Shown here piece after piece: positions 1,758-54,101 of a stretch of DNA of 64,000 bases (its first letter is position 1; each line of letters opens with the position of its first letter). Under the pieces are notes generated by a model, which was given only the letters and a program-made list of their open reading frames with translations, was not told the DNA's origin and made no database searches. The position numbers and the translations under genes were made by a program. The DNA comes from an uncultured Granulosicoccus sp. (GTDB taxonomy: Bacteria; Pseudomonadota; Gammaproteobacteria; Granulosicoccales; Granulosicoccaceae), in contig CALKLO010000118.1 in the NCBI GenBank assembly GCA_937991945.1, positions 1-64,000 on the forward strand, read 5' to 3'.

Positions 1758-2212
1758 TGAAGTCCATTGACTACACCATTGTTGACCCTCGCATCGGGGA
1801 CACCATTGAACTTCCAAAATACGAAACACAAGGCTCAGCAGGCCTAGACCTAAGAGCCTGTTTAGACAAAGAACTCTCCCTTGAGCCCGGTAAAACCGAG
1901 CTCATACCCACAGGCATCTGTATACACATTGCCGACTCAGGATACGCAGGCTTCATCCTGCCCCGCTCAGGCCTAGGCCATAAGCACGGCATTGTGCTGG
2001 GAAACCTCGTGGGGTTAATTGATTCAGACTACCAAGGCCAGTTATTTGTCTCATGCTGGAACCGTGGCTCTGCCGCCTATACTATTGAAGTCGGCGCACG
2101 TATTGCACAGTTAGTTATTGTGCCAGTTGCCCAGGTTACGTTTAACCACGTTGAGAGCTTTGACGAGTCCTCGCGCGGTGAAGCCGGATTTGGGTCAACG
2201 GGAAAAAAATAA
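1757..2212 (+). CDS. dut: dUTP diphosphatase (dUTPase)
   Basis: Trimeric dUTPase of 151 residues, hydrolysing dUTP to dUMP and diphosphate; this keeps uracil out of DNA and supplies dUMP for thymidylate synthesis. The conserved motifs appear in order: AGLDLRA (motif 1), [11 protein letters not shown] (2), [11 protein letters not shown] (3), [12 protein letters not shown] (4), and the C-terminal [10 protein letters not shown] arm (5) that closes over the active site. The start codon overlaps the coaBC stop by one base. The coaBC-dut pair is standard in gammaproteobacteria. Confidence 0.97.
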
Positions 2213-2325
2213 CCGTTTTACGACATTAGCTAAAGCCAAGACGCGGTACAAACAAGGAAGCGCTATAAGGATGTATGCAGCGCTTCTACGACACCTGTAC
2301 CCCTAATCAGGAGATTAAAAAGTAC

Positions 2326-3708
2326 ATGAGTATTTCACCCGCTATTTTTCGAGCCTACGACATTCGTGGTGTTGTCAGTGAATCTTTGACACCCGCGGCC
2401 GTTGAACAAATTGGACGCGCATTCGGATCCGAGTGCAAGGAACGCGATATTCCAACCGTCGTTGTTGCACGAGATGGCAGACTCTCCGGCCCTGATCTTA
2501 TTAAGGCACTGAGCACCGGTATTCAAAGCACCGGCGTGAACGTCATTGATATCGGTATGGTTCCAACACCGGTACTGTACTTTGCGACATTCCATCTCAA
2601 CACCGGTACCGGCATTATGGTTACGGGTAGCCACAACCCACCTGAGTACAACGGCCTGAAAATGGTTGTCGGTGGCGATGCGCTATTTGGCGATGGCATT
2701 ACCGCACTTCACACACGCCTGGTTGAAGACAACCTTCACACTGCAGACACCGCTGGCACCTTTGCCACACAGGACATTCTGCAAGACTACCTCGATAGAA
2801 TTTTAGGCGACGTCAAACTGTCCCGCCCTATGAGCATTGCCTATGACTGCGGCAACGGTGTGGCTGGCGCTGCAGCACCTCAAATGTTTGATGCATTGGG
2901 CTGCACATCATCATCACTGTTTACAGAGGTTGATGGCAACTTCCCTAACCATCACCCTGACCCTGCAAAATTGGAAAATCTAAAAGACCTCATTGCCGTG
3001 GTTAAAGAGAAAAAACACGAAGTAGGCTTAGCCTTTGATGGCGACGGCGACCGTGTTGGTGTTGTCGATGATCAAGGCAATGTCATTTGGCCCGATAGAC
3101 AAATGGTTTTATTCGCCCGTGACGTTCTTGAGCGTAACCCAGGCGCACGCATTATCTATGATGTTAAGTGCTCTAAGGTTCTACCTGCAGCAATCACAGC
3201 AGCTGGCGGCGAGCCTGATATGTGGAAGACAGGTCACTCGTTTATTAAAGCGCGTATTAAAGAAACCGGCGCACTGCTCGGTGGTGAAATGAGCGGACAC
3301 ATGTTCTTTAAAGAGCGTTGGTACGGCTTTGACGATGCACTTTATGCAGCGGCCCGTTTACTTGAAATTCTGTCTAAAACAGATCGCCCAGCGAGTGAGA
3401 TTTTTGGTGAGATTCCTAACAGCATCAATACACCTGAACTCAACGTCACACTAGACAGAGACGGTGCTCAGCACGAGTTTGTTGAAAAGTTTGTCGCTGG
3501 CGCCACGTTTGACGGTGCAAAGCTAACCACTATTGACGGTGTCCGTGCGGACTACCCAGATGGCTGGGGCTTACTGCGTGCATCCAACACAACACCGTCG
3601 CTGGTTATCCGCTTTGAAGCCGATACCGATGAAGCTATGACTCGCATTCAAGGTGAATTCCGCCAACACATGCAAAACACTGACAGTTCCGTTAGCATCC
3701 CTTTCTAA
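2326..3708 (+). CDS. algC: Phosphomannomutase / phosphoglucomutase
   Basis: Alpha-D-phosphohexomutase of the AlgC type, interconverting the 6-phosphate and 1-phosphate of mannose or glucose for surface-polysaccharide and LPS precursors. Motifs: phosphoserine loop TGSHNP with Ser102, metal-binding DGDGDR at 238-243, sugar-binding GGEMSGH, and the C-terminal phosphate-binding RASNTTPS. I chose the ATG at 2326 (460 residues, close to AlgC length) because MSISPAIFRAYDIRG matches the family start and an AGGAG lies at 2309-2313; an upstream in-frame ATG at 2275 would add 17 unlikely residues. The enzyme sits in the coaBC-dut-algC-argB cluster, as in Pseudomonas. Confidence 0.95.
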   Translation: MSISPAIFRAYDIRGVVSESLTPAAVEQIGRAFGSECKERDIPTVVVARDGRLSGPDLIKALSTGIQSTGVNVIDIGMVPTPVLYFATFHLNTGTGIMVTGSHNPPEYNGLKMVVGGDALFGDGITALHTRLVEDNLHTADTAGTFATQDILQDYLDRILGDVKLSRPMSIAYDCGNGVAGAAAPQMFDALGCTSSSLFTEVDGNFPNHHPDPAKLENLKDLIAVVKEKKHEVGLAFDGDGDRVGVVDDQGNVIWPDRQMVLFARDVLERNPGARIIYDVKCSKVLPAAITAAGGEPDMWKTGHSFIKARIKETGALLGGEMSGHMFFKERWYGFDDALYAAARLLEILSKTDRPASEIFGEIPNSINTPELNVTLDRDGAQHEFVEKFVAGATFDGAKLTTIDGVRADYPDGWGLLRASNTTPSLVIRFEADTDEAMTRIQGEFRQHMQNTDSSVSIPF

Positions 3709-39016: not shown

Positions 39017-40258
39017 CTAGATATCAAATACGATACGGGCTGGATCCTCTACCAATTCCTTAATCGTTTTAAGGAAGCCAACCGCACCTTTGCCATCCAC
39101 GATACGGTGATCGTAACTTAGCGCAACGTACATCATAGGTCGGATAACCACTTCGCCATTGATAGCAACTGGGCGATCTTGTGTGGCATGCATACCCAAA
39201 ATGGCGCTTTGTGGTGGGTTCAAAATAGGTGTTGATAACAACGAACCAAACACACCGCCGTTAGAAACAGTAAAGGTGCCGCCCGTCATCTCTTCTAGAG
39301 ACAGTTTGCCATCACGCGCTTTTTCGGCATAGTGACCAATACTTTTTTCAACGTCAGCCAATGACATGAATTCAGTGTTACGCAGAACTGGCACCACTAA
39401 ACCACGCTCGGACGATACTGCAACTCCGATATCGCAATAGCCGTGGTATACCACTTCATCACCGTCGATAGAGGCATTGATATCTGGGTAGCGCTTGAGC
39501 GCTTCCGTCGCAGCTTTAAGGAAGATAGACATAAAGCCAAGCTTTACACCATGCGATTTTTCAAACTTGTCTTTGTACTGGCCTCGAAGTGCAATGAACT
39601 GACTCATGTCAATTTCATTGAACGTTGTCAGCATGGCTGTGTCTTGGCTCGCCGAGAGCAAGCGCTCTGCGATTCGAGCACGAAGCCTAGACATCGGAAC
39701 ACGCTTCTCAACTCGCTCACCGTCAGCCATGATAGGCAACGCTGTTGCACTAGCCGCAGGTGCTGCAGCTTTTGCAGGAGCCGCACTAGCCGCTGGCGCC
39801 GCCGTTGCGCCCGCAGCAATATGCTGCTCAACATCGGCTTTGGAAATACGTCCGTTTTTACCAGTACCTTTCACATCAGCAGCATTCAGCGAATGCTTGT
39901 CCAACAACTTACGCACTGAAGGACTAGTTTGGCCTGCAGCAGCGTTGTCAGCAGCAGGTGCCTCTTCGCTCTTTGCAGCTTCTGGAGCGGCTGCCGGGGC
40001 AGCGGCTGGTGCGGATGCTGAAGCGGCCTCTATAGAACCAATCACTTGATGAGCAGCAACCGTTGTGCCTTCGGGCTCAATGATTTTTCCCAGCACACCG
40101 TCTTCGGCAGCGGGTACTTCCATGACGACTTTATCGGTTTCAATATCAACCAACACTTCATCGCGGCTGACGGGATCGCCTTCCTTTTTATGCCACGTCA
40201 CGATCAATGCATCAGCAATTGATTCGGGCAGTGTCGGCACTTTGATCTCGGATGTCAT
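39017..40258 (-). CDS. sucB: Dihydrolipoamide succinyltransferase (E2 of 2-oxoglutarate dehydrogenase)
   Basis: 413-residue core subunit that transfers the succinyl group to CoA in the TCA cycle. The lipoyl domain carries the modified Lys in [13 protein letters not shown] (Lys43). An Ala/Pro-rich linker is followed by the peripheral subunit-binding domain ([30 protein letters not shown]) and the catalytic domain, with [13 protein letters not shown] at the active site. It begins 42 bases after sucA and ends before a bidirectional terminator. Confidence 0.97.
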
Positions 40259-40300: not shown

Positions 40301-43174
40301 TTAATGCGTCTGACTATTGGGTATTAAACCCAGGCACTCTTCAACCAGACGCTTTTGTTCGATTTGATGTTGACTCATGTAGCCACTAGCCGGTGAGGCT
40401 GACGGCGAACGACCTGCAAATTCCAGAACATTAACCGACTCTGGCAGCACTCGCTCAATACGATGACGATTAGAGCGCCAAGCACCTTGGTTGCGCGGCT
40501 CTTCCTGACACCAGACAATAGATGTTGCATTCGGATACTGCTGAACAGCCTCGTGCATTTCGTCATAAGGGAACGGATACAGCTGCTCCAATCTAACCAA
40601 AGCAACATTGCCCATTTCCTTTTTACGCCGTGCTTCGAGTAAGTCGTAGTAAACCTTGCCACTGCAAAACACGAGTCGGTCGACTGCGTTGGCATCAAGC
40701 TCATCAATTTCAGGTAGCACTGGCTGGAATGTACCTTCGGCCAAGTCTTCCAGTGTCGACACTGCAAGCTTATGGCGAAGCAAACTTTTGGGAGACATAA
40801 CAATCATAGGACGGCGCATTGGCCGAACCATCTGCCTACGCAACATATGATAAGCCTGTGCCGGTGTACTAGGCACCAATACCTGCATGTTGTCCTCGGC
40901 ACACAGTTGCAAAAAGCGTTCTATTCTTGCCGATGAATGCTCTGGTCCCTGCCCTTCGTAACCGTGAGGCAGAAGCAGTGTCAAACCGCACAAGCGTCCC
41001 CATTTGGTTTCACCGGAGCTAATGAATTGATCGATCAGTACCTGAGCACCGTTGGCGAAATCGCCAAACTGAGCTTCCCAAATAACGAGTGTGCTCGGGT
41101 CAGCAGTTGCATAACCATATTCAAAGCCTAGAACAGCCTCTTCAGAGAGTACTGAATCGATAACCAAGAAGTTAGCTTTGTCAGTGAGTTCTCTAAGTGG
41201 CACATGAGCACCCATTTGAGCCTGGTTGTGCAGCACTGCGTGCCGGTGGGCGAACGTACCGCGACCACAATCTTGTCCAGACAAGCGCACTGAAAAACCG
41301 TCGTCTAGCAACGTGGCGTAAGCCATTGTTTCAGCGTAACCCCAATCTAGCGGCAACGCGCCAGCGGTCATTTTGCGCCGATCTTCAACAATCTTTTTGA
41401 CTCGTGAATGCAGTACCAAGCCATCTGGCAACGTACCCAGCTGAGTGGCTAATGACTGGATCTTTTCCAGTGCAACCCTACCTTCGTAAGGTACGCGCCA
41501 ATCTTTGGAGGCATATTTTGCCCAGTCCACGTGTAATTCAGGTGCTTCAGCAAGACCTTCAATGATGCCTGGCGCAACATTGACACCATCGTCAAGAGAC
41601 TGACGATAGTCTTCGACCATTTTGTCAGCCTCAGCTGCCGTGATAATGCCTTCTGAGACGAGCTTCTCTGCGTACAAAGTACGTGTCGTAGCAAGTGCCT
41701 TGATGGACTTGTACATTATAGGCTGCGTTACCGACGGCTCGTCAGTCTCGTTGTGCCCGTGACGTCGGTAACAAACCATGTCTATTACGACATCCTTGTT
41801 GAACGCCATACGAAAATCCAGCGCCAGCTGCGTCACGAAGTAAACCGCTTCAGGATCGTCACCGTTGACATGAAAAATAGGCGCGTTGATCATTTTCGCA
41901 ACATCGGTTGCGTACAACGTTGAGCGCGCATCAGCCACGTTACTGGTTGTGAAGCCGATCTGATTGTTGACGATGATATGAACCGTACCTTTCGTGGAGA
42001 ATCCACGCGAGTCGGCCATATTGAACGTCTCCATAACAACGCCCTGCCCGGCAAAAGCCGCATCGCCATGTATGGCAATAGGTATGACCTTGTCACCGTC
42101 TTTATCGCCGTAGCGATCCTGACGAGACCGCACTGAGCCTTCTACAACAGGCGATACGATTTCTAAATGAGAGGGGTTAAACGCAAGCGACAAGTGCATA
42201 TGCCCATGCGGTGTGCGGATGTCTGAGCTAAAGCCTTGATGATACTTAACGTCACCAGAGGACAAGCTTTCGTTGTGCTTACCTTCAAATTCTTGGAATA
42301 AATCTGCAGGGTTTTTACCCAAAATGTTGACCAGCATGTTGAGCCTGCCACGATGCGCCATGCCAAGAACCATGTCCTTAACGCCTGCAACACCGGCACG
42401 CTTGACCAGCTCGCTCATAATCAGGATCAGACCCTCTCCACCTTCTAAGGAGAATCGCTTTTGTCCGACATAGCGAGAGCCAAGGTGACGCTCCATACTC
42501 TCCGCAGCTGTTATGCGTTGCAGAATCCACTGTTTCGTATCGGCATTTAGAATCGGCGCGGAGGCCACGCTTTCGATGCGCTGCTGCAGCCAGTCTTTTT
42601 GCGGCGTGTAATCGATGTACATAAATTCGTACCCGATTGAACTGCAATAGCACTTCTCTAAGTGAGAAATAATATCTTTGAGAGGCGCTCTATCGATACC
42701 TTCTAGTGAAGGAGTTGGAAATACCGTGTCTAAATCTGACTCAGCAAGTCCATTTTCATGCAACCGCAACTCGCGCACCTTGGCTTCAGACTGACTGCCC
42801 AAAGGATCGGTCTTAGCCAACTGATGGCCTCGCACCCGATACGCGTTGATCAGCTGCGTTACATAGATTTGTTTGAGTTCGACGGCATCGCTTGAGCCAC
42901 CCGTTGATGCGCCACTAGCTCGAGCCATTGGAGACTTGGCAAGCTGACGAAATTGGGCACGAATCTCGGAGTGAGCCACTTCGCGAGCGTTTTCGGCCAC
43001 CATGGGCAGAGCCGCGAAGTAATCACGCCACGTTTCATCAACCGAGTTGGGATCTCGTAAATACTGCTCGTATTGACTTTCCAACCAAGGAGAATTAGCA
43101 CCGCCGAGCAATGAGGTATCCCACTGCTCCTGCATTCCAGGCTTAGCGTCGACTGTTTTAGACGTTGAACTCAT
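40301..43174 (-). CDS. sucA: 2-oxoglutarate dehydrogenase E1 component
   Basis: Thiamine-diphosphate-dependent decarboxylase of the 2-oxoglutarate complex, 957 residues. The N-terminal E2-binding helix includes SPWLESQYEQYLRDP. The ThDP region has GMAHRGRLNMLVNIL, IHGDAAFAGQGVVMETFN and GHNETDEPSVTQP; the C-terminal half includes DCGRGTFAHRHAVLHNQ and LPHGYEGQGPEHSSARIERFLQ (shown in part). It lies 57 bases after the isocitrate dehydrogenase-like gene, and icd-like-sucA-sucB appear to be one transcript. Confidence 0.97.
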   Translation of the reverse strand: MSSTSKTVDAKPGMQEQWDTSLLGGANSPWLESQYEQYLRDPNSVDETWRDYFAALPMVAENAREVAHSEIRAQFRQLAKSPMARASGASTGGSSDAVELKQIYVTQLINAYRVRGHQLAKTDPLGSQSEAKVRELRLHENGLAESDLDTVFPTPSLEGIDRAPLKDIISHLEKCYCSSIGYEFMYIDYTPQKDWLQQRIESVASAPILNADTKQWILQRITAAESMERHLGSRYVGQKRFSLEGGEGLILIMSELVKRAGVAGVKDMVLGMAHRGRLNMLVNILGKNPADLFQEFEGKHNESLSSGDVKYHQGFSSDIRTPHGHMHLSLAFNPSHLEIVSPVVEGSVRSRQDRYGDKDGDKVIPIAIHGDAAFAGQGVVMETFNMADSRGFSTKGTVHIIVNNQIGFTTSNVADARSTLYATDVAKMINAPIFHVNGDDPEAVYFVTQLALDFRMAFNKDVVIDMVCYRRHGHNETDEPSVTQPIMYKSIKALATTRTLYAEKLVSEGIITAAEADKMVEDYRQSLDDGVNVAPGIIEGLAEAPELHVDWAKYASKDWRVPYEGRVALEKIQSLATQLGTLPDGLVLHSRVKKIVEDRRKMTAGALPLDWGYAETMAYATLLDDGFSVRLSGQDCGRGTFAHRHAVLHNQAQMGAHVPLRELTDKANFLVIDSVLSEEAVLGFEYGYATADPSTLVIWEAQFGDFANGAQVLIDQFISSGETKWGRLCGLTLLLPHGYEGQGPEHSSARIERFLQLCAEDNMQVLVPSTPAQAYHMLRRQMVRPMRRPMIVMSPKSLLRHKLAVSTLEDLAEGTFQPVLPEIDELDANAVDRLVFCSGKVYYDLLEARRKKEMGNVALVRLEQLYPFPYDEMHEAVQQYPNATSIVWCQEEPRNQGAWRSNRHRIERVLPESVNVLEFAGRSPSASPASGYMSQHQIEQKRLVEECLGLIPNSQTH

Positions 43175-43231
43175 TGAATAGGTCCTAACCCTTTTGACCC
43201 CTGAAGCTCCAGAGGCTCTGGTGTTACCCGG

Positions 43232-44269
43232 CTAAAGATGTGCCGGAATATTGTCAATGACGACTTGAGTAAATTCGTCGGTGTTAAGTTTACCGCCCAA
43301 ATCCCTTGTGCTGTGACCATTTTCGATACAACCCAACAAACTTAACCGTAAAGCATGACCCAAATCGTAGCGATCTACATGATCTAGTAGCATACCGAAT
43401 GCCAACAGAACAGCCGCAGGGTTAGCTACGTTTTTACCAGCGATGTCAGGTGCTGTTCCACCTGCTGGGTCAAACATAGCGATATCCACATCGTTGTTTT
43501 CATCAAACGAGTAATTTCCACTCGCCCCGGTGCCTAGACTACCAACAAGACCGGAGGCCATGTCTGAAAGAAAATCACCGTACTCATTCAATACCAGCAC
43601 AACTTCATAGGAAGAAGGATCGATAATAATCTTTGCCAACAAGGCATCGAATAACTCCACGTTGTGCTCAACGTCCGAGAATTCTTTGTGGACGCCTGCG
43701 ACCACTGATTCAAATAAACCGTCAGTGACGCGCTGAATGGTGTGTTTAGAGGAGCTCGTCATTGAGTAGTGGCTGCCACCGTAGGTCATGCCTTTCGAGC
43801 GCGCCAACTGGAAGGCGAATTTAGCAGCCTGCTCGCACGGCTTACGCTCGACCATTCGCAGCGACACAGCGGCATCCTTACCAATTAATTGACCCGGGTC
43901 GTCATAGGTACCACCCGTGGCAATCCGCACGATGTGTAAATTGACGTTTTCTTTGAAGTTGGTGTGTATGCCTTTAATAGAAATGGCAGGACGGTAGATG
44001 ACACTGAAGTCACAACGCCGTCTTATCAGGGCATTCGGGCTGCTCTTGTTCGTTATCGTTGGGTATTTAACCGCCAACTTGGTGTCTCGCATGGAAGCCT
44101 CGGCTTCATCGATAACGGCATCGCCCAAAGCTTCACGGTTCTCTAAGGACCAATCTACTGGAATAAAAGCAAAATCGACAGGCAAAGACTCGGCTACAGC
44201 GTGAACTGACTCGGCTAGCTCTGGCCCAATGCCATCGCCTAGCAACTCAGTGATCCGGATGGTACTCAC
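43232..44269 (-). CDS. Isocitrate/isopropylmalate dehydrogenase family protein, probable isocitrate dehydrogenase
   Basis: 345-residue beta-decarboxylating dehydrogenase. N-terminal ELLGDGIGPELAESV and C-terminal PAGGTAPDIAGKNVANPAAV are family hallmarks. The substrate-binding region is unusual: KYPTITNKSSPNALIRRR and IVRIATGGTYDDPGQ replace the common IDH/IMDH sequences, and the metal-binding segment reads YGDFLSDMASGLVG. The position directly before sucA points to isocitrate as substrate; cofactor preference (NAD or NADP) cannot be read confidently. It could instead act on another 2-hydroxy acid. Confidence 0.75.
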   Translation of the reverse strand: MSTIRITELLGDGIGPELAESVHAVAESLPVDFAFIPVDWSLENREALGDAVIDEAEASMRDTKLAVKYPTITNKSSPNALIRRRCDFSVIYRPAISIKGIHTNFKENVNLHIVRIATGGTYDDPGQLIGKDAAVSLRMVERKPCEQAAKFAFQLARSKGMTYGGSHYSMTSSSKHTIQRVTDGLFESVVAGVHKEFSDVEHNVELFDALLAKIIIDPSSYEVVLVLNEYGDFLSDMASGLVGSLGTGASGNYSFDENNDVDIAMFDPAGGTAPDIAGKNVANPAAVLLAFGMLLDHVDRYDLGHALRLSLLGCIENGHSTRDLGGKLNTDEFTQVVIDNIPAHL

Positions 44270-44369
44270 GTGACTCTCCTAAATACAGTGCCTTTGTGCA
44301 CTTAAAGCTTTCAAGCAGATTGCCTGAAGGGTTAAAGGTTCTACAACGTTATTGCGTACAGCTAGGTCG

Positions 44370-44924
44370 TTATTCTTCTTCGTCCGAATCCATGTAGATA
44401 TCCAGATCTTCATCAAGTTCAAAGCGTGCTGGGTTTGCCCAAAAACGCGCATTTAACCAATCTGGCGATTGTTTGTAATGACTCAACCGAAATTCATACC
44501 ACCGATTTTCTTCGCCAAGCACCGCATCACTCGACACGTTGAGTTTTCTGAACCCCAAAGAGAAAAATAACGAATCTGGTGCATGCTCTAATTGAGTGTA
44601 GACGATGAGCCTGTGAGGAAAAGCACGAACTGCTTGTCCAATGACAGGAGCCAGATTTGATTCAATCTCTTGGATATTTAAAACAGCCGTATTGAGATCA
44701 CTACCAGGCTCATCTGAGGCTGTAGAGGCTTTGAGTAGATTTTCTGCCTCATCCAGCGTATCCAGTCGCACAACATCTTGTGACATCTCTGACTCATTGG
44801 GCCAAGACAAATCGGACTCAGGGCAGGCAATCAGAAATAAACGTCCCTGATCGCCATCCAGCAGATAGTCCGCAAGAGGTGTTCTATCGCCTTGCAGGGG
44901 GTGAACTGTGGGCTTTTTGTCCAT
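44370..44924 (-). CDS. DUF6231-like hypothetical protein
   Basis: 184-residue acidic cytoplasmic protein. The segments FFSLGFRKLN, HYKQSPDWLNARFWANPARF and the acidic C-terminus are reminiscent of DUF6231 proteins of gammaproteobacteria, an assignment from memory. The central part reads like a GNAT- or TOPRIM-like alpha/beta domain but has no active-site motif. It begins nine bases after the DUF1244 gene and likely shares a transcript with it. Confidence 0.7.
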   Translation of the reverse strand: MDKKPTVHPLQGDRTPLADYLLDGDQGRLFLIACPESDLSWPNESEMSQDVVRLDTLDEAENLLKASTASDEPGSDLNTAVLNIQEIESNLAPVIGQAVRAFPHRLIVYTQLEHAPDSLFFSLGFRKLNVSSDAVLGEENRWYEFRLSHYKQSPDWLNARFWANPARFELDEDLDIYMDSDEEE

Positions 44925-44933
44925 AGGTTACGC

Positions 44934-45242
44934 CTAGTCGTGAGTCGCCTTGTACTGGGCAGACTGCTCGGGAGTGGCTTGAGTTTGGTGTTTAGATTTC
45001 CACTCAGCGTAAGGCATACCGTAGACTCGCTCGCGAGCGTCTTCATAGCTAAGCTCGATATTTTTATCCGCACCTGCGGCCACATAGTATTTAGACAAAC
45101 AATTTCGGCAGAACCCTGCCAAGTTCATGAGGTCGATATTCTGAACATCGGTACGCTCTCGCAAGTGCTCAACCAAGGTACGGAAGGCAGCAGCCTCCAA
45201 CTCGGTTTGTGTTTGCTGGTCCAGAGTGTTGATTTCAGCCAT
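44934..45242 (-). CDS. DUF1244 family protein
   Basis: 102-residue cytoplasmic protein. RTLVEHLRERTDVQNIDLMN, then LAGFCRNCLSKYYVAA, is the DUF1244 signature, a helical family with conserved Cys pair of unknown function. The ATG at 45240-45242 is supported by AAGGA about ten bases upstream; the longer frame to 45287 is not needed. The DUF1244/DUF6231 pair runs toward the isocitrate dehydrogenase-like gene with a 100-base gap. Confidence 0.88.
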   Translation of the reverse strand: MAEINTLDQQTQTELEAAAFRTLVEHLRERTDVQNIDLMNLAGFCRNCLSKYYVAAGADKNIELSYEDARERVYGMPYAEWKSKHQTQATPEQSAQYKATHD

Positions 45243-45315
45243 AGTCGTTATTTCCTTGTGACAGATGCACCTATTATAAGGAGTCACTCCGGTAACGGTA
45301 GATGAAGATCACACC

Positions 45316-48957: not shown

Positions 48958-50868
48958 TTATCGCCGCTCACCTCGAAGTTGTCGAACGTTCTCTTTTAAC
49001 GCCTCTAAATCGAGATTGTCTGGCGCTACCGCCTCACCCACATTCAAACCGATGCGAGCGAAAACGCGACGCGGCAATTTAAAGAAAGCAGCGCCGCCTT
49101 TACGGCTAAACAAACTGCCCCACAAACCCTGAAGCGCTACCGGAATAACTGGCACCGGCTGCTCTCCCAGCACGCGAACAATGCCTGGCTTGAAGGGATT
49201 CATTTCACCGTCTCGAGTAATTTCACCCTCTGGGAAAATACACAATAAATCGCCATTGGCCAGTGCTGCCTTCATTTCGACGAATGCACTATCGAACATC
49301 GCTTTGTCTTCACGCTGACCGGCAATGGGAATGGCTTGAGCCGTTCTAAAAATAAAATTAAGTACTGGGATCTGATAAATTTTGTAGTACATAACAAACC
49401 GCATAGGCCGTCGTATACACCCTGCAAGAATAAGCGCATCAACAAAGCTGACATGATTGACAGCAATGATTGCCGCACCCTCGTCAGGAATATTCTCTAA
49501 GCCTCGCTTTTGAACTCTGTAGGCCGTATGCACTAGAAGCCATACCAAAAAGCGCATAAAAAATTCTGGTACTTGCTTGAAAATGTAGAGCGCCACAGCG
49601 GCGTTCATGATTGCCAAGACCAAAAACATTTGAGGAACTGTTGCGCCAGCACTCAACAGAAGCAAAGCGAACACCGCCGACAACACCATGAACAACGCGT
49701 TAATAATGTTATTGCAAGCAATAGCGCGAGACAGTCTTTCAGGTGCACTTCTTTGCTGGATCAGCGCATAGAGAGGGACGATATAAAATCCGCCAAACAA
49801 ACCAATCAACAAAATATCGAATAAAACACGCCAGGCACCATCGGCCAGAATGAATGCCAGCACGCCTAAATCAGCACCCAGTGGAAGCGACGGTGTTGCG
49901 AAGAATAGATCCAGACCAAACACGGTTAGCCCTATTGCTCCAAACGGCACTAACCCAATTTCTACTCGACCATGAGACAAGCGCTCGCACAGTACCGAAC
50001 CTGTCCCGATTCCCACAGAAAAGCATCCCAGCATTATCGTAAACACATCGACGTTTCCCCCAATGACATCTCTAGCGAAAACGGGAAACTGAGCCAAATA
50101 AGTTGCTCCTAAAAACCAGAACCATGAGATGGCAAGGATTGATTGGAAAACAACAAAGTTCTTAGATGTTTCTCTTACCAGCTTGACGGTTTCAGTAAAC
50201 GGGTTGAACCGGACAATTAATGTCGGATCGCTCGCTGGTGAGTGCGGTATCAAGCGACTTGCCACATAACCTGAAATGGCAACTACGAGAAGGACGACGG
50301 ACACCAGCACAGTACTGCCGTCAGTTGCGCTGGCAATAAGTTGCGTTCCCGAGATAGTGCCAATCAGAATCGCTAAAAATGTACCCAACTCAACTAACCC
50401 AATTCCACCGGTTAGCTCAGCAGGCGTCAGATGTTGAGGCAGTATTCCGAACTTTATCGGACCAAAGAAGGCCGACTGTGTACCCATGAGGAACAGGACA
50501 CCAATAAGCAATGGAACACTTTGCAGGTAGAAGGCCGCGACGCCACAGCTCATGATGCCAATCTCGGCCAACTTGATTCGGCGGATTAGAGCCGACTTTT
50601 CGTATTTGTCGGCTATTTGACCGAAGATCGCCGAAAAAAGGAAAAAGGGCAATATAAAAAGCCCCGCCGCCAAGTTAATCATCAATCCATCGTTCATGGA
50701 GGATGACTGAACCGCAGCAAAAGCGATCAGCGCTATGAGCGCATTTTTATAAACGTTGTCATTGAATACACCCAGAAATTGCGTTATGAAAAACGGTGCG
50801 AACCGCCTTTGCCTCAGCAATTGAAATTGACTCGGGGAATGACTCGTTTGGGTCTTCTCTTGATTCAT
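48958..50868 (-). CDS. MFS (LplT-like) - lysophospholipid acyltransferase fusion
   Basis: 636-residue inner-membrane fusion. The N-terminal half has an LplT-like MFS transporter of about twelve helices (FITQFLGVFNDNVYKNALI), which flips lysophospholipids. The C-terminal half carries a PlsC-type acyltransferase: VNHVSFVDALIL with the H-x4-D active site, and FPEGEITRDGEM for substrate binding. The acyl-ACP synthetase domain found in some Aas fusions is absent. ATG at 50866-50868 is preferred over GTG at 50910. Confidence 0.9.
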   Translation of the reverse strand: MNQEKTQTSHSPSQFQLLRQRRFAPFFITQFLGVFNDNVYKNALIALIAFAAVQSSSMNDGLMINLAAGLFILPFFLFSAIFGQIADKYEKSALIRRIKLAEIGIMSCGVAAFYLQSVPLLIGVLFLMGTQSAFFGPIKFGILPQHLTPAELTGGIGLVELGTFLAILIGTISGTQLIASATDGSTVLVSVVLLVVAISGYVASRLIPHSPASDPTLIVRFNPFTETVKLVRETSKNFVVFQSILAISWFWFLGATYLAQFPVFARDVIGGNVDVFTIMLGCFSVGIGTGSVLCERLSHGRVEIGLVPFGAIGLTVFGLDLFFATPSLPLGADLGVLAFILADGAWRVLFDILLIGLFGGFYIVPLYALIQQRSAPERLSRAIACNNIINALFMVLSAVFALLLLSAGATVPQMFLVLAIMNAAVALYIFKQVPEFFMRFLVWLLVHTAYRVQKRGLENIPDEGAAIIAVNHVSFVDALILAGCIRRPMRFVMYYKIYQIPVLNFIFRTAQAIPIAGQREDKAMFDSAFVEMKAALANGDLLCIFPEGEITRDGEMNPFKPGIVRVLGEQPVPVIPVALQGLWGSLFSRKGGAAFFKLPRRVFARIGLNVGEAVAPDNLDLEALKENVRQLRGERR

Positions 50869-51066
50869 AGAGCTCGTCAGCAAAACAGCTGCTCGACTGA
50901 GAGCTATCACATAACCTACATTGAATCAAAAATGGTGCCATAGATCCAGCTTTAAAGCTGCATCGCGCCTGCCTACTATATCCAAGCAGGCTTTGCTCGG
51001 TCAAAGCGACCGATAGGCACCCAATTTTTTGACGCCCGTAGTGGGCGGCACGATAGTGATAGTGCC

Positions 51067-51410: not shown

Positions 51411-54101
51411 TCACTTCAAACTCTTACTGACTAACTCATACACGTCAGGCGACAACTCACCGGATTGCAGTATGCGTTCAAGCTGCGCTTTCATAAGCTC
51501 TTTTGATTGCGCTTCCAGTTTCTTCCAGCGCCCAAGCGGACTGACCATGCGCGCAGCAACTTGTGGATTAAATTTATCCAACTGAATGACCTGATCAGCG
51601 AGCAACCGATACCCTGCACCATCGCCACCATGAAAACCACGGGGGTTACTCATAGCGAAGCTGCCTACGACAGATCTCAACCGATTCGGATTTGCCGCAT
51701 CAAAATCTTCATGCGTTAACAACGTGTTTATATCACCCACTATGCTTGCTCGCCGTGACAGTGCTTGCACTGCAAACCATTTATCCAACACCAATCGGTT
51801 TTCACGTGCCGACTGATAGAAGTCGTTTAAACACTCTGTCCTTGCAGGGCTATCGGTATGACATAAACACGCAATAGCTGCGAGACGATCAGTCATGTTT
51901 GTTGACTGTTGATATTGCGCGACAGCCATAGCCTGCCAACGCTCGGCTGGCAAGAAGCTCAATAGTGCCAGAGCTGTATTTGCTAGACTTCTCAACCCCA
52001 TAGATTGAGAGTCCAGTAGGGGTAGATCAGTACGCCTACTGTTAGTCACCAAATTTGATAGCTGAACGTACAGTGTCTGTGCAATATGTGCAGACACTGC
52101 ATCAACGGCTGCCACCAGCTTGGAATAATTTAAGTCTATGACTGCCTCGGCAATGGTATCGATGGTGGGCAAGCTTAGCGCTTCAGCTTTAAATGCTGGA
52201 TCAAGAGTGTCATCATTCAACAAGGCTTCTAATGCCGAAATTAAACCGCTTGCAGCATCGGTTAGGCTATTACCGTTCATAACATTAATAATGACGCGCT
52301 GGGCAAGTCTCTGGCCAGCCTCCCAACGATTAAACGCATCAGAATCGTTAGCAATAAGAAAGGACAGGGTCTCTTCAGACACCTCTTGATTCAAAATAAC
52401 CGGTGCCGAAAAACCTCTCAGTAATGAGGCAACGGGGGCTTGCGGTATATCTTGAAAACGAAAGGTTTGTTCACGCTGCGTTACATTCAAAAGCACACCA
52501 TGCTCGGTTGGCGAGCCAGGCAACGAATACTCATTACCGTTGGCATCTAACAAGCCGACAACCAACGGAATATGTAACGGTGGCTTTTCAGCTTGCCCTG
52601 GTGTCTCAGGACACGACTGCCTTATCATTAGTGAATAACACGAGGAATCTTCGTCGTAGCTTTCGGTCACGCTCAGCGTTGGTGTGCCAGCCGTGCTGTA
52701 CCAACGCCTGAATTGAGAAAGGTCCAATTCGGCAACACTCTGCATCGCATCGATGAAGGCGTCGCAGGTTGTTGCCGATCCATCGTGCCGGGCGACGTAT
52801 TCGTCCATACCTAACCGCCACTGGTCAGCACCTAGCAGCGTATGCAGCATGCGTATGACTTCTGCACCTTTCTCATAAACGGTTAGCGTATAAAAATTAT
52901 TGATCTCTATATAACTATCGGGGCGTATGGGGTGCGACATAGGGCCAGCGTCTTCAGGAAACTGACGCGCCCTTAACAGCCTGACATCTTCAATGCGTTT
53001 TACCGTCGCTGAGTGCATATCGCTGGAAAAACATTGATCTCTGAATACCGTTAACCCTTCTTTCAGACTCAGCTGAAACCAATCACGGCACGTAATTCTG
53101 TTGCCTGTCCAATTATGGAAATACTCATGCGCAATAACCGCCTCAACACCTAAGTAATCACTATCGGTGGCGGTCTCAGGGTCAGCCAGTACAAACCGTG
53201 AATTAAACACATTGAGCCCTTTGTTTTCCATGGCCCCCATATTGAAGTCATCAACCGCTACGATCATAAAACAATCAAGATCGTACTCAAGTCCGTACAC
53301 CTCTTCATCCCAACGCATGGAGGCAATTAACGATTGCATAGCAAAATCGCATCGCTCAATATTGTGTTGCTGCACGTAAATTTGCAGTAGCACGTCTCGC
53401 CCTGATGCCGTAACAAAGCGCTCTTCTATGTGAGCAAGATCTCCTGCTACCAACGCAAATAAATAACACGGCTTTGGGTGAGGGTCATGCCATTTAGCAC
53501 GGTGCAAACCGTTGTCGAGCTCTTCATGCAACACTCGGTTGCCATTGGCAAGCAACACAGGGTAGTCCTTCGCATTGGCCACTATCTCAACGTCATAGAT
53601 GGACAAAACATCGGGTCTATCGAGGTAGTAGGTAATTTTGCGAAAACCTTCTGCTTCGCATTGGGTGCAAAAATTTCCGCTAGAACGGTACAACCCTTCT
53701 AACGCTTTATTAGCATTTGGATTGATGATGGTCACGATACTGACCACACAGCGCCCAGGAAGCTTAACAAGGTGCAGCTCGGTTGCACTGACGGTATAGG
53801 CATCTTTAGGCAATAGAGCGCCGTCTAAAGAAACTGACTCTAGAACACAGTCGACCCCTTGAAGCACTAACTCGAAGTGCTGGCGCTCAGTTGCACTCGC
53901 AGTTGCACTCGCAGTTGCACTCGCAGTTGCACTCGCAGTTGCACTCGCAGTTGCACCCGCGCTTGCGTGCGCCAGTGTCAACTCACTGGTGACTCGCGTG
54001 GCTGTAGGGTCTAACTCGAAAAGCAAACCTGTATGAGCGATTGACCACTCAGGCGCTAGATAGTCTTCTCGGTATATGGTGACGGGGGTGTTCGTGTCCA
54101 T
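51411..54101 (-). CDS. pepN: Aminopeptidase N (M1 family)
   Basis: 896-residue zinc aminopeptidase, normally cytoplasmic. Exopeptidase motif GAMEN lies in DDFNMGAMENKGLNVFNSR. Zinc ligands are H325-E-Y-F-H329 and E348 in the KEGLTVF segment. The N-terminal beta domain, catalytic domain, Ig-like domain and helical C-terminal domain match PepN. An Ala-Thr-Ser repeat (about residues 48-72) encoded by a 12-bp tandem repeat lengthens a loop in the N-terminal domain and may explain the extra length over E. coli PepN (870 residues). Confidence 0.95.
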   Translation of the reverse strand: MDTNTPVTIYREDYLAPEWSIAHTGLLFELDPTATRVTSELTLAHASAGATASATASATASATASATASATERQHFELVLQGVDCVLESVSLDGALLPKDAYTVSATELHLVKLPGRCVVSIVTIINPNANKALEGLYRSSGNFCTQCEAEGFRKITYYLDRPDVLSIYDVEIVANAKDYPVLLANGNRVLHEELDNGLHRAKWHDPHPKPCYLFALVAGDLAHIEERFVTASGRDVLLQIYVQQHNIERCDFAMQSLIASMRWDEEVYGLEYDLDCFMIVAVDDFNMGAMENKGLNVFNSRFVLADPETATDSDYLGVEAVIAHEYFHNWTGNRITCRDWFQLSLKEGLTVFRDQCFSSDMHSATVKRIEDVRLLRARQFPEDAGPMSHPIRPDSYIEINNFYTLTVYEKGAEVIRMLHTLLGADQWRLGMDEYVARHDGSATTCDAFIDAMQSVAELDLSQFRRWYSTAGTPTLSVTESYDEDSSCYSLMIRQSCPETPGQAEKPPLHIPLVVGLLDANGNEYSLPGSPTEHGVLLNVTQREQTFRFQDIPQAPVASLLRGFSAPVILNQEVSEETLSFLIANDSDAFNRWEAGQRLAQRVIINVMNGNSLTDAASGLISALEALLNDDTLDPAFKAEALSLPTIDTIAEAVIDLNYSKLVAAVDAVSAHIAQTLYVQLSNLVTNSRRTDLPLLDSQSMGLRSLANTALALLSFLPAERWQAMAVAQYQQSTNMTDRLAAIACLCHTDSPARTECLNDFYQSARENRLVLDKWFAVQALSRRASIVGDINTLLTHEDFDAANPNRLRSVVGSFAMSNPRGFHGGDGAGYRLLADQVIQLDKFNPQVAARMVSPLGRWKKLEAQSKELMKAQLERILQSGELSPDVYELVSKSLK
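53888..53959 (-). repeat. Six-copy 12-bp tandem repeat inside pepN
   Basis: Plus-strand unit CAGTTGCACTCG is repeated exactly five times (53888-53947), then once as CAGTTGCACCCG (53948-53959). As a 12-base unit it preserves the reading frame and encodes an Ala-Thr-Ala-Ser repeat. Copy-number changes would alter the protein by four residues each. Confidence 0.92.

Follow-up and report, generated by a model that had tools for sequence, protein, structure and literature searches.

A divergent isocitrate dehydrogenase-like protein, predicted to be NAD-dependent, encoded directly upstream of sucA in Granulosicoccaceae

The gene at positions 43232–44269 (reverse strand) of the window, the whole 64,000-nucleotide stretch of DNA from an uncultured Granulosicoccus sp. 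analyzed here, encodes a 345-amino-acid protein whose clade we refer to by the working name IDHX. We consider it probable, at roughly 0.72, that IDHX is a working NAD-isocitrate dehydrogenase (NAD-IDH) whose branch is apparently undescribed and which provides 2-oxoglutarate and NADH next to 2-oxoglutarate dehydrogenase (OGDH). In the best reading of the data, it would be an auxiliary, and sometimes possibly the sole, NAD-IDH feeding OGDH. Isocitrate dehydrogenase (IDH) is a textbook family, and conclusions on how NAD- and NADP-dependence evolved draw on its three-type classification. Searches of the open-access literature returned no description of IDHX, nothing joining either Thiothrix (plus TCA cycle) or Granulosicoccus with isocitrate dehydrogenase, and nothing on a "type IV" NAD-IDH phylogeny.

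The IDHX reading frame begins with GTG and is preceded by AGGAGA (44275–44280, reverse strand), which reads as its probable ribosome-binding site. Its stop codon is followed by a gap of 57 bp (43175–43231) and then, 3' of IDHX on the same strand, by sucA (40301–43174; 2-oxoglutarate dehydrogenase E1, 957 aa; NF006914, 1331 bits, cut-off 764) and sucB (39017–40258; dihydrolipoyl succinyltransferase, E2, 413 aa; NF004309, 599 bits, cut-off 449), both of which pass their NCBIfam equivalog cut-offs. A preliminary description of this DNA had placed the gene 57 bases before sucA, exactly as found, and had also called it fused to sucAB; a literal fusion is ruled out, the two being separate ORFs across the gap. 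A promoter and terminator scan detected no consensus-like site inside the 57-bp interval and was otherwise uninformative; we infer that IDHX and sucA are co-transcribed. On the other side, also on the reverse strand, lie genes for a DUF6231 protein (44370–44924; PF19742, 64.6 bits), the upstream neighbor in most Granulosicoccaceae loci by synteny, and for a DUF1244 protein (44934–45287; PF06844, 120 bits). Two further reverse-strand genes of the window drew attention in their own right: an aminopeptidase N-like protein (51411–54101) carries a run of SAT/ASAT repeats in its N-terminal part, ATASATASATASATASAT, and a 650-aa protein (48958–50910), judged from its sequence, resembles a fusion of an MFS transporter and a PlsC-type acyltransferase.

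Because dN between IDHX and five relatives is low (approximately 0.03–0.18) while synonymous sites are near saturation, we take the gene to be functional, under strong purifying selection and no chance ORF, and a pseudogene is ruled out on the same values.

Family membership was assessed with curated profiles. The sole Pfam match of the protein is PF00180 (184.5 bits, E = 4e-54, residues 6–337), well past the gathering cut-off of 27 bits; PF03971, the domain of type III monomeric IDH, is absent among its Pfam matches. The family hallmarks GDGIGPE and GTAPDIAGK, already pointed out in the preliminary description, are both present in the ORF, as are TITNKSSPNALIRRR, IVRIATGGTYDDPG and GGSHYSMTSSSKHTI. 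Eighteen NCBIfam models match, all far below their own cut-offs, and no curated equivalog is reached. The best of them is the NAD isocitrate dehydrogenase model PRK08997/NF006529 (197 bits, cut-off 510), against which distant IDHX members score similarly at 178 and 198 bits. Scores also fall below the cut-offs of the homoisocitrate dehydrogenase models AksF and AksF2 (186 and 149 bits; cut-offs 540 and 500), the LeuB model TIGR00169 (101; 353), the type I NADP-IDH (icd) model (67; 567) and the type II models PRK08299 and TIGR00127 (28.8 and 17.7; 335 and 397).

With the single protein as query, phmmer against PDB sequences returned human IDH3 alpha first, at 160 bits. A profile built from 21 IDHX family members (profile A2) matched Xanthomonas NAD-IDH 6m3s (204 bits), IDH3 alpha (approximately 200), yeast IDH2 (192) and Methylococcus NAD-IDH 6lky (186) at the top, followed by regulatory IDH3 subunits (up to 148), homoisocitrate dehydrogenase (145), LeuB (up to 138) and type I NADP-IDH (up to 98); no type II chain was among its best 60 PDB matches. 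Profile–profile comparison with hhalign gave 351 for NAD-IDH (E = 3.5e-51), 196 for LeuB, 160 for type I and 75 for type II. By these profile scores, the small NAD-IDHs (Xanthomonas IDH, Methylococcus IDH and IDH3 alpha) are nearest to IDHX; LeuB, type I NADP-IDH and type II score far lower. Most likely, IDHX resembles the small NAD-IDHs in how it works, yet lies outside the PRK08997 equivalog as currently curated.

The active-site residues are consistent with this placement. Human IDH3 alpha uses K69, T74, S82, N84, R88, R98, R119, Y126, D230 and D234 in its active site and E260, G264, T265, A266, D268 and N276 for NAD (PMC6827300). The IDHX counterparts of the first set are K68, T73, S77, N79, R83, R93, R115, Y122, D232 and D236; those of the NAD set are G271, T272, A273, D275 and N283. 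K175 and D208 take the places of the catalytic Lys and the third metal Asp, with the same spacing as in IDH3 alpha. These isocitrate, metal, K175/D208 and NAD positions do not vary among 21 sequences, which range down to 65% identity. The ligand set of the short type I-like NAD-IDH class (T, S-x-N-x3-R, R, R, Y, K', D', D, D) is thus complete in IDHX, and the earlier claim that its substrate region does not look like that of a classical NAD- or NADP-IDH is not supported: all isocitrate ligands are kept and the IDH signature S-x-N-x3-R is present. Across the alignment, T73 and the S-x-N pair occur in all small NAD-IDH, type I and type II rows and in no LeuB, homoisocitrate dehydrogenase (HICDH) or tartrate dehydrogenase row.

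For the coenzyme, D275, I276 and A282 of IDHX form the Asp-Ile-Ala set associated with NAD in type I IDHs (PMC10380307), with A282 replaced by Cys in some relatives; Asp-Ile stands where type I NADP-IDH has the Lys-Tyr NADP motif. IDHX departs from IDH3 alpha at Glu260 (Asp267) and His263 (Gly270) of the NAD loop, at Leu72 (Thr71), and in having IATGG for ENTEG. Gly at the NAD-loop His position is also found in E. coli LeuB. The latter is an NAD enzyme, and the idea that loss of this His signals an inactive IDHX is weakened accordingly. A 7-residue GGSHYSM insert was considered as a defining trait of the clade and ruled out, being absent in families f155, f12, f97, f141, f11 and f9.

On these residues, IDHX would be a catalytically competent NAD-dependent IDH of the short (approximately 340-aa) type I-like class. 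It is expected to form a homo-oligomer in which K175 and D208 of the partner subunit complete the active site; Mg or Mn would be held by D208', D232 and D236, and isocitrate would be oxidized and decarboxylated to 2-oxoglutarate and NADH. With the gene directly 5' of sucA in Granulosicoccaceae and two other families, IDHX would form its product side by side with the enzyme that consumes it. Within the window genome, IDHX would be an NADH-yielding companion of a monomeric IDH, and in a few relatives it may be the main IDH.

Comparison with characterized systems places IDHX close to, and outside, two of them. It shares with the small bacterial NAD-IDHs (6m3s/6ltf of Xanthomonas campestris, 6lky of Methylococcus capsulatus, PRK08997) the fold, the length of approximately 340 aa, all isocitrate and metal ligands and the Asp-Ile NAD motif; it differs in its identity of only approximately 31%, its shortfall against the PRK08997 cut-off, its separate clade, IATGG for ENTEG, Asp/Gly for the NAD-loop Glu/His, and S-P-N for other forms of S-x-N. 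Human IDH3 alpha and yeast IDH2 are the nearest single matches, with the Lys and three Asp in constant register; IDHX is approximately 31% identical to them, has no regulatory partner gene at its locus and, as far as the locus shows, is not hetero-oligomeric.

Phylogenetic analysis, performed without the row LeuB_L133 (an antisense ORF), recovered IDHX as one clade with support of 98/89. The suggestion of a possibly distinct IDH class fared well here, given this clade and the absence of a fitting curated family. With type II sequences included, IDHX joins type II (support 96/98) through a type II branch of approximately 7 changes per site; with type II left out, it falls on the IDH3 alpha branch. 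In AU tests on a smaller tree, grouping with IDH3 alpha (p = 0.32) and with type I (p = 0.14) was not rejected, and grouping with LeuB was (p = 0.008). The safe statement from these inferred trees is that IDHX forms its own clade outside LeuB.

A first AF2 model from close relatives only (pLDDT 53) was set aside; with distant relatives added, the model reached pLDDT 83 and pTM 0.86. Its best Foldseek matches were IDH3 alpha and Xanthomonas IDH. VIA-align Z scores were 35–37 and close across NAD-IDH, homoisocitrate dehydrogenase and LeuB, with rows within Z 1 counted as tied, and therefore the substrate cannot be read from the fold alone. Type II IDHs were not among the 50 VIA-align entries shown, which is no evidence against type II kinship.

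The main rival to the NAD-IDH reading is that IDHX is an active beta-decarboxylating dehydrogenase acting on a different 2-hydroxyacid (homoisocitrate-, alkylmalate- or tartrate-like); its coexistence with canonical IDHs, NAD-type ones included, would then be explained. The LeuB-like T-G-G-x-Y in place of E-N-T-E-G, the Gly at the NAD-loop His and a homoisocitrate dehydrogenase as the top VIA-align row, albeit a tied one, would all suit such an enzyme. We nevertheless regard it as unlikely: LeuB lacks the S-x-N isocitrate pair, which together with T73 sets IDHX with the IDH rows of the alignment and apart from LeuB, HICDH and tartrate dehydrogenase; LeuB kinship is rejected by the AU test; and the sucAB neighborhood points to 2-oxoglutarate. 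LeuB resembles IDHX in TGGxY and, in E. coli, in the Gly that precedes SAPDIAGK, and the window genome has a LeuB of its own. Alternatively, IDHX could be a non-catalytic regulatory or structural partner, comparable to yeast IDH1 or IDH3 beta/gamma, that perhaps adjusts OGDH or another IDH. The changes in the NAD loop (Asp for Glu, Gly for His) and the usual presence of another IDH would fit that role, to which we give very little weight given that the catalytic Tyr, the Lys and the three Asp never vary, that the catalytic alpha/IDH2 subunits score higher (192–201 bits) than the regulatory ones (138–148), that no partner gene lies beside IDHX, and that one genome (G147) has no other candidate IDH.

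Partial likeness to the type II (eukaryote-like) IDHs had been pointed out in the preliminary description, and this has a basis. Single positions are shared (T71, P78 of S-P-N, A117 and G119 of R-x-A-x-G, and A212), a likeness that is local only, and the motif R-x-A-x-G-x-x-Y and the tree that joins the two groups point the same way. Overall kinship is not supported: type II gave the lowest profile score of the classes tested, with hhalign at 75 versus 351 for NAD-IDH and NCBIfam scores of 29 and 18 bits where 335 and 397 are required; the join in the tree runs through the very long type II branch, IDHX with IDH3 alpha is not rejected, and leaving type II out moves IDHX to the IDH3 alpha branch. 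The NAD-specific type II enzyme of Congregibacter, ClIDH, is described as hexameric, with 580 aa and a 163-aa insert (PMC4420465), which sets it apart from the 345-aa IDHX. Membership of the type II subfamily is accordingly highly improbable. A bolder formulation makes IDHX a deep, undescribed IDH subfamily that branches near the split of type I-like NAD-IDH and type II, has the NAD site of type I and a substrate loop resembling that of type II, is linked genetically to 2-oxoglutarate dehydrogenase and is the sole IDH of some gammaproteobacteria; this we hold to be possible, though doubtful.

The distribution of IDHX was then examined. A scan of the contig collection with window-derived patterns yielded 13 close copies (75–96% identity) in Granulosicoccaceae, Thiothrix, Thiolinea and Thiofilum, together with four distant LeuB-like proteins. 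IDHX is present in 17 of 369 sampled gammaproteobacterial genomes, representing nine families, and in half of the genomes of the window's order (24/48), where it lies directly 5' of sucA in every case (24/24). The order DUF1244–IDHX–sucA also occurs in families f94 and f155, and one f155 locus reads IDHX–sucA–sucB–lpd. Thiotrichaceae and families f11, f12, f97 and f141 have other neighbors and no IDHX–sucA linkage; locus L112 (f9) was left out of this comparison. The linkage recurs in three families and is missing in others, and therefore it is probably ancient, with losses in some lineages. A TCA role, earlier suggested from proximity to sucA, fits this recurrence. IDHX was absent from the viral contigs searched, and the plasmid matches listed for it reach approximately 33% identity or less. 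In one genome (G214; L071/L114), two in-frame TAG codons interrupt the IDHX copy, through decay or assembly error, and the copy of its sister genome G062 is intact. A contig of the viral collection (L136, IMGVR_UViG_3300009504_000946, 66.6 kb) encodes at 1989–3029 a 346-aa NAD-IDH-like protein, 45% identical to L086; the gene is flanked by two genes without assigned function and may be an auxiliary metabolic gene or come from host DNA.

To place IDHX among the isocitrate dehydrogenases of its genomes, the PF00180 and PF03971 proteins were compared. The window genome encodes a monomeric IDH (PF03971, 1280 bits) outside the IDHX locus. The preliminary description had taken a second, canonical icd to speak against its proposal; this enzyme removes the need for IDHX as the only IDH, not its predicted activity. 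PF03971 proteins occur in 41 of the 48 genomes of the order. Thiothrix relatives combine type I icd, monomeric IDH and IDHX, and four genomes (G191, G267, G365 and G465) pair IDHX with a PRK08997-like NAD-IDH; two NAD-type enzymes would duplicate each other there, a hint that substrate or regulation may differ.

Four draft genomes more than 90% complete contain IDHX without type I, small NAD-IDH or type III IDH, the classes covered: G147 (99%), G004 (95%), G038 (92%) and G005 (91%). G147 has citrate synthase, LeuB and IDHX, and no further PF00180 or PF03971 protein. The other three have no PF03971 protein, and their remaining PF00180 matches are LeuB, tartrate dehydrogenase-like or unclassified. 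G018 (93% complete) has no canonical IDH, no IDHX and no LeuB among its matches, and therefore assembly gaps matter for such cases; that IDHX is the sole IDH in some draft genomes is suggestive only.

IDHX would be a candidate for the IDH role where a genome showed no other. Conserved yet uncatalogued, and pairing the NAD site of type I with a substrate loop similar to that of type II, the clade would make a useful test case for the history of NAD and NADP use; defining it would also give NCBI-style annotation a name for a protein that at present satisfies no specific model. Should IDHX be only a redundant NAD-IDH, its interest would be limited to annotation.

Two further PF00180 groups were noted in these genomes. 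Three PF00180 proteins are encoded in the window genome, namely LeuB, IDHX and an unclassified 377-aa protein (L002:1435–2568, contig C42) that is LEU3-like (278 bits versus 410), lies below every curated cut-off and has a long branch in the tree; L142 and L148 belong to the same group. A second unclassified group of approximately 355 aa comprises L093 (G144), L137 (G038), L139 (G004), L143 (G005) and L149 (G018) and is marked by GTQSHMDYPP...GRNVSAGFR and MREATEGFY, by His for the nicotinamide-side Thr and by N-x-S in place of S-x-N. Its members occur in Granulosicoccaceae without monomeric IDH, and in others, and the best model for L093 is TIGR02088, at a score below the cut-off.
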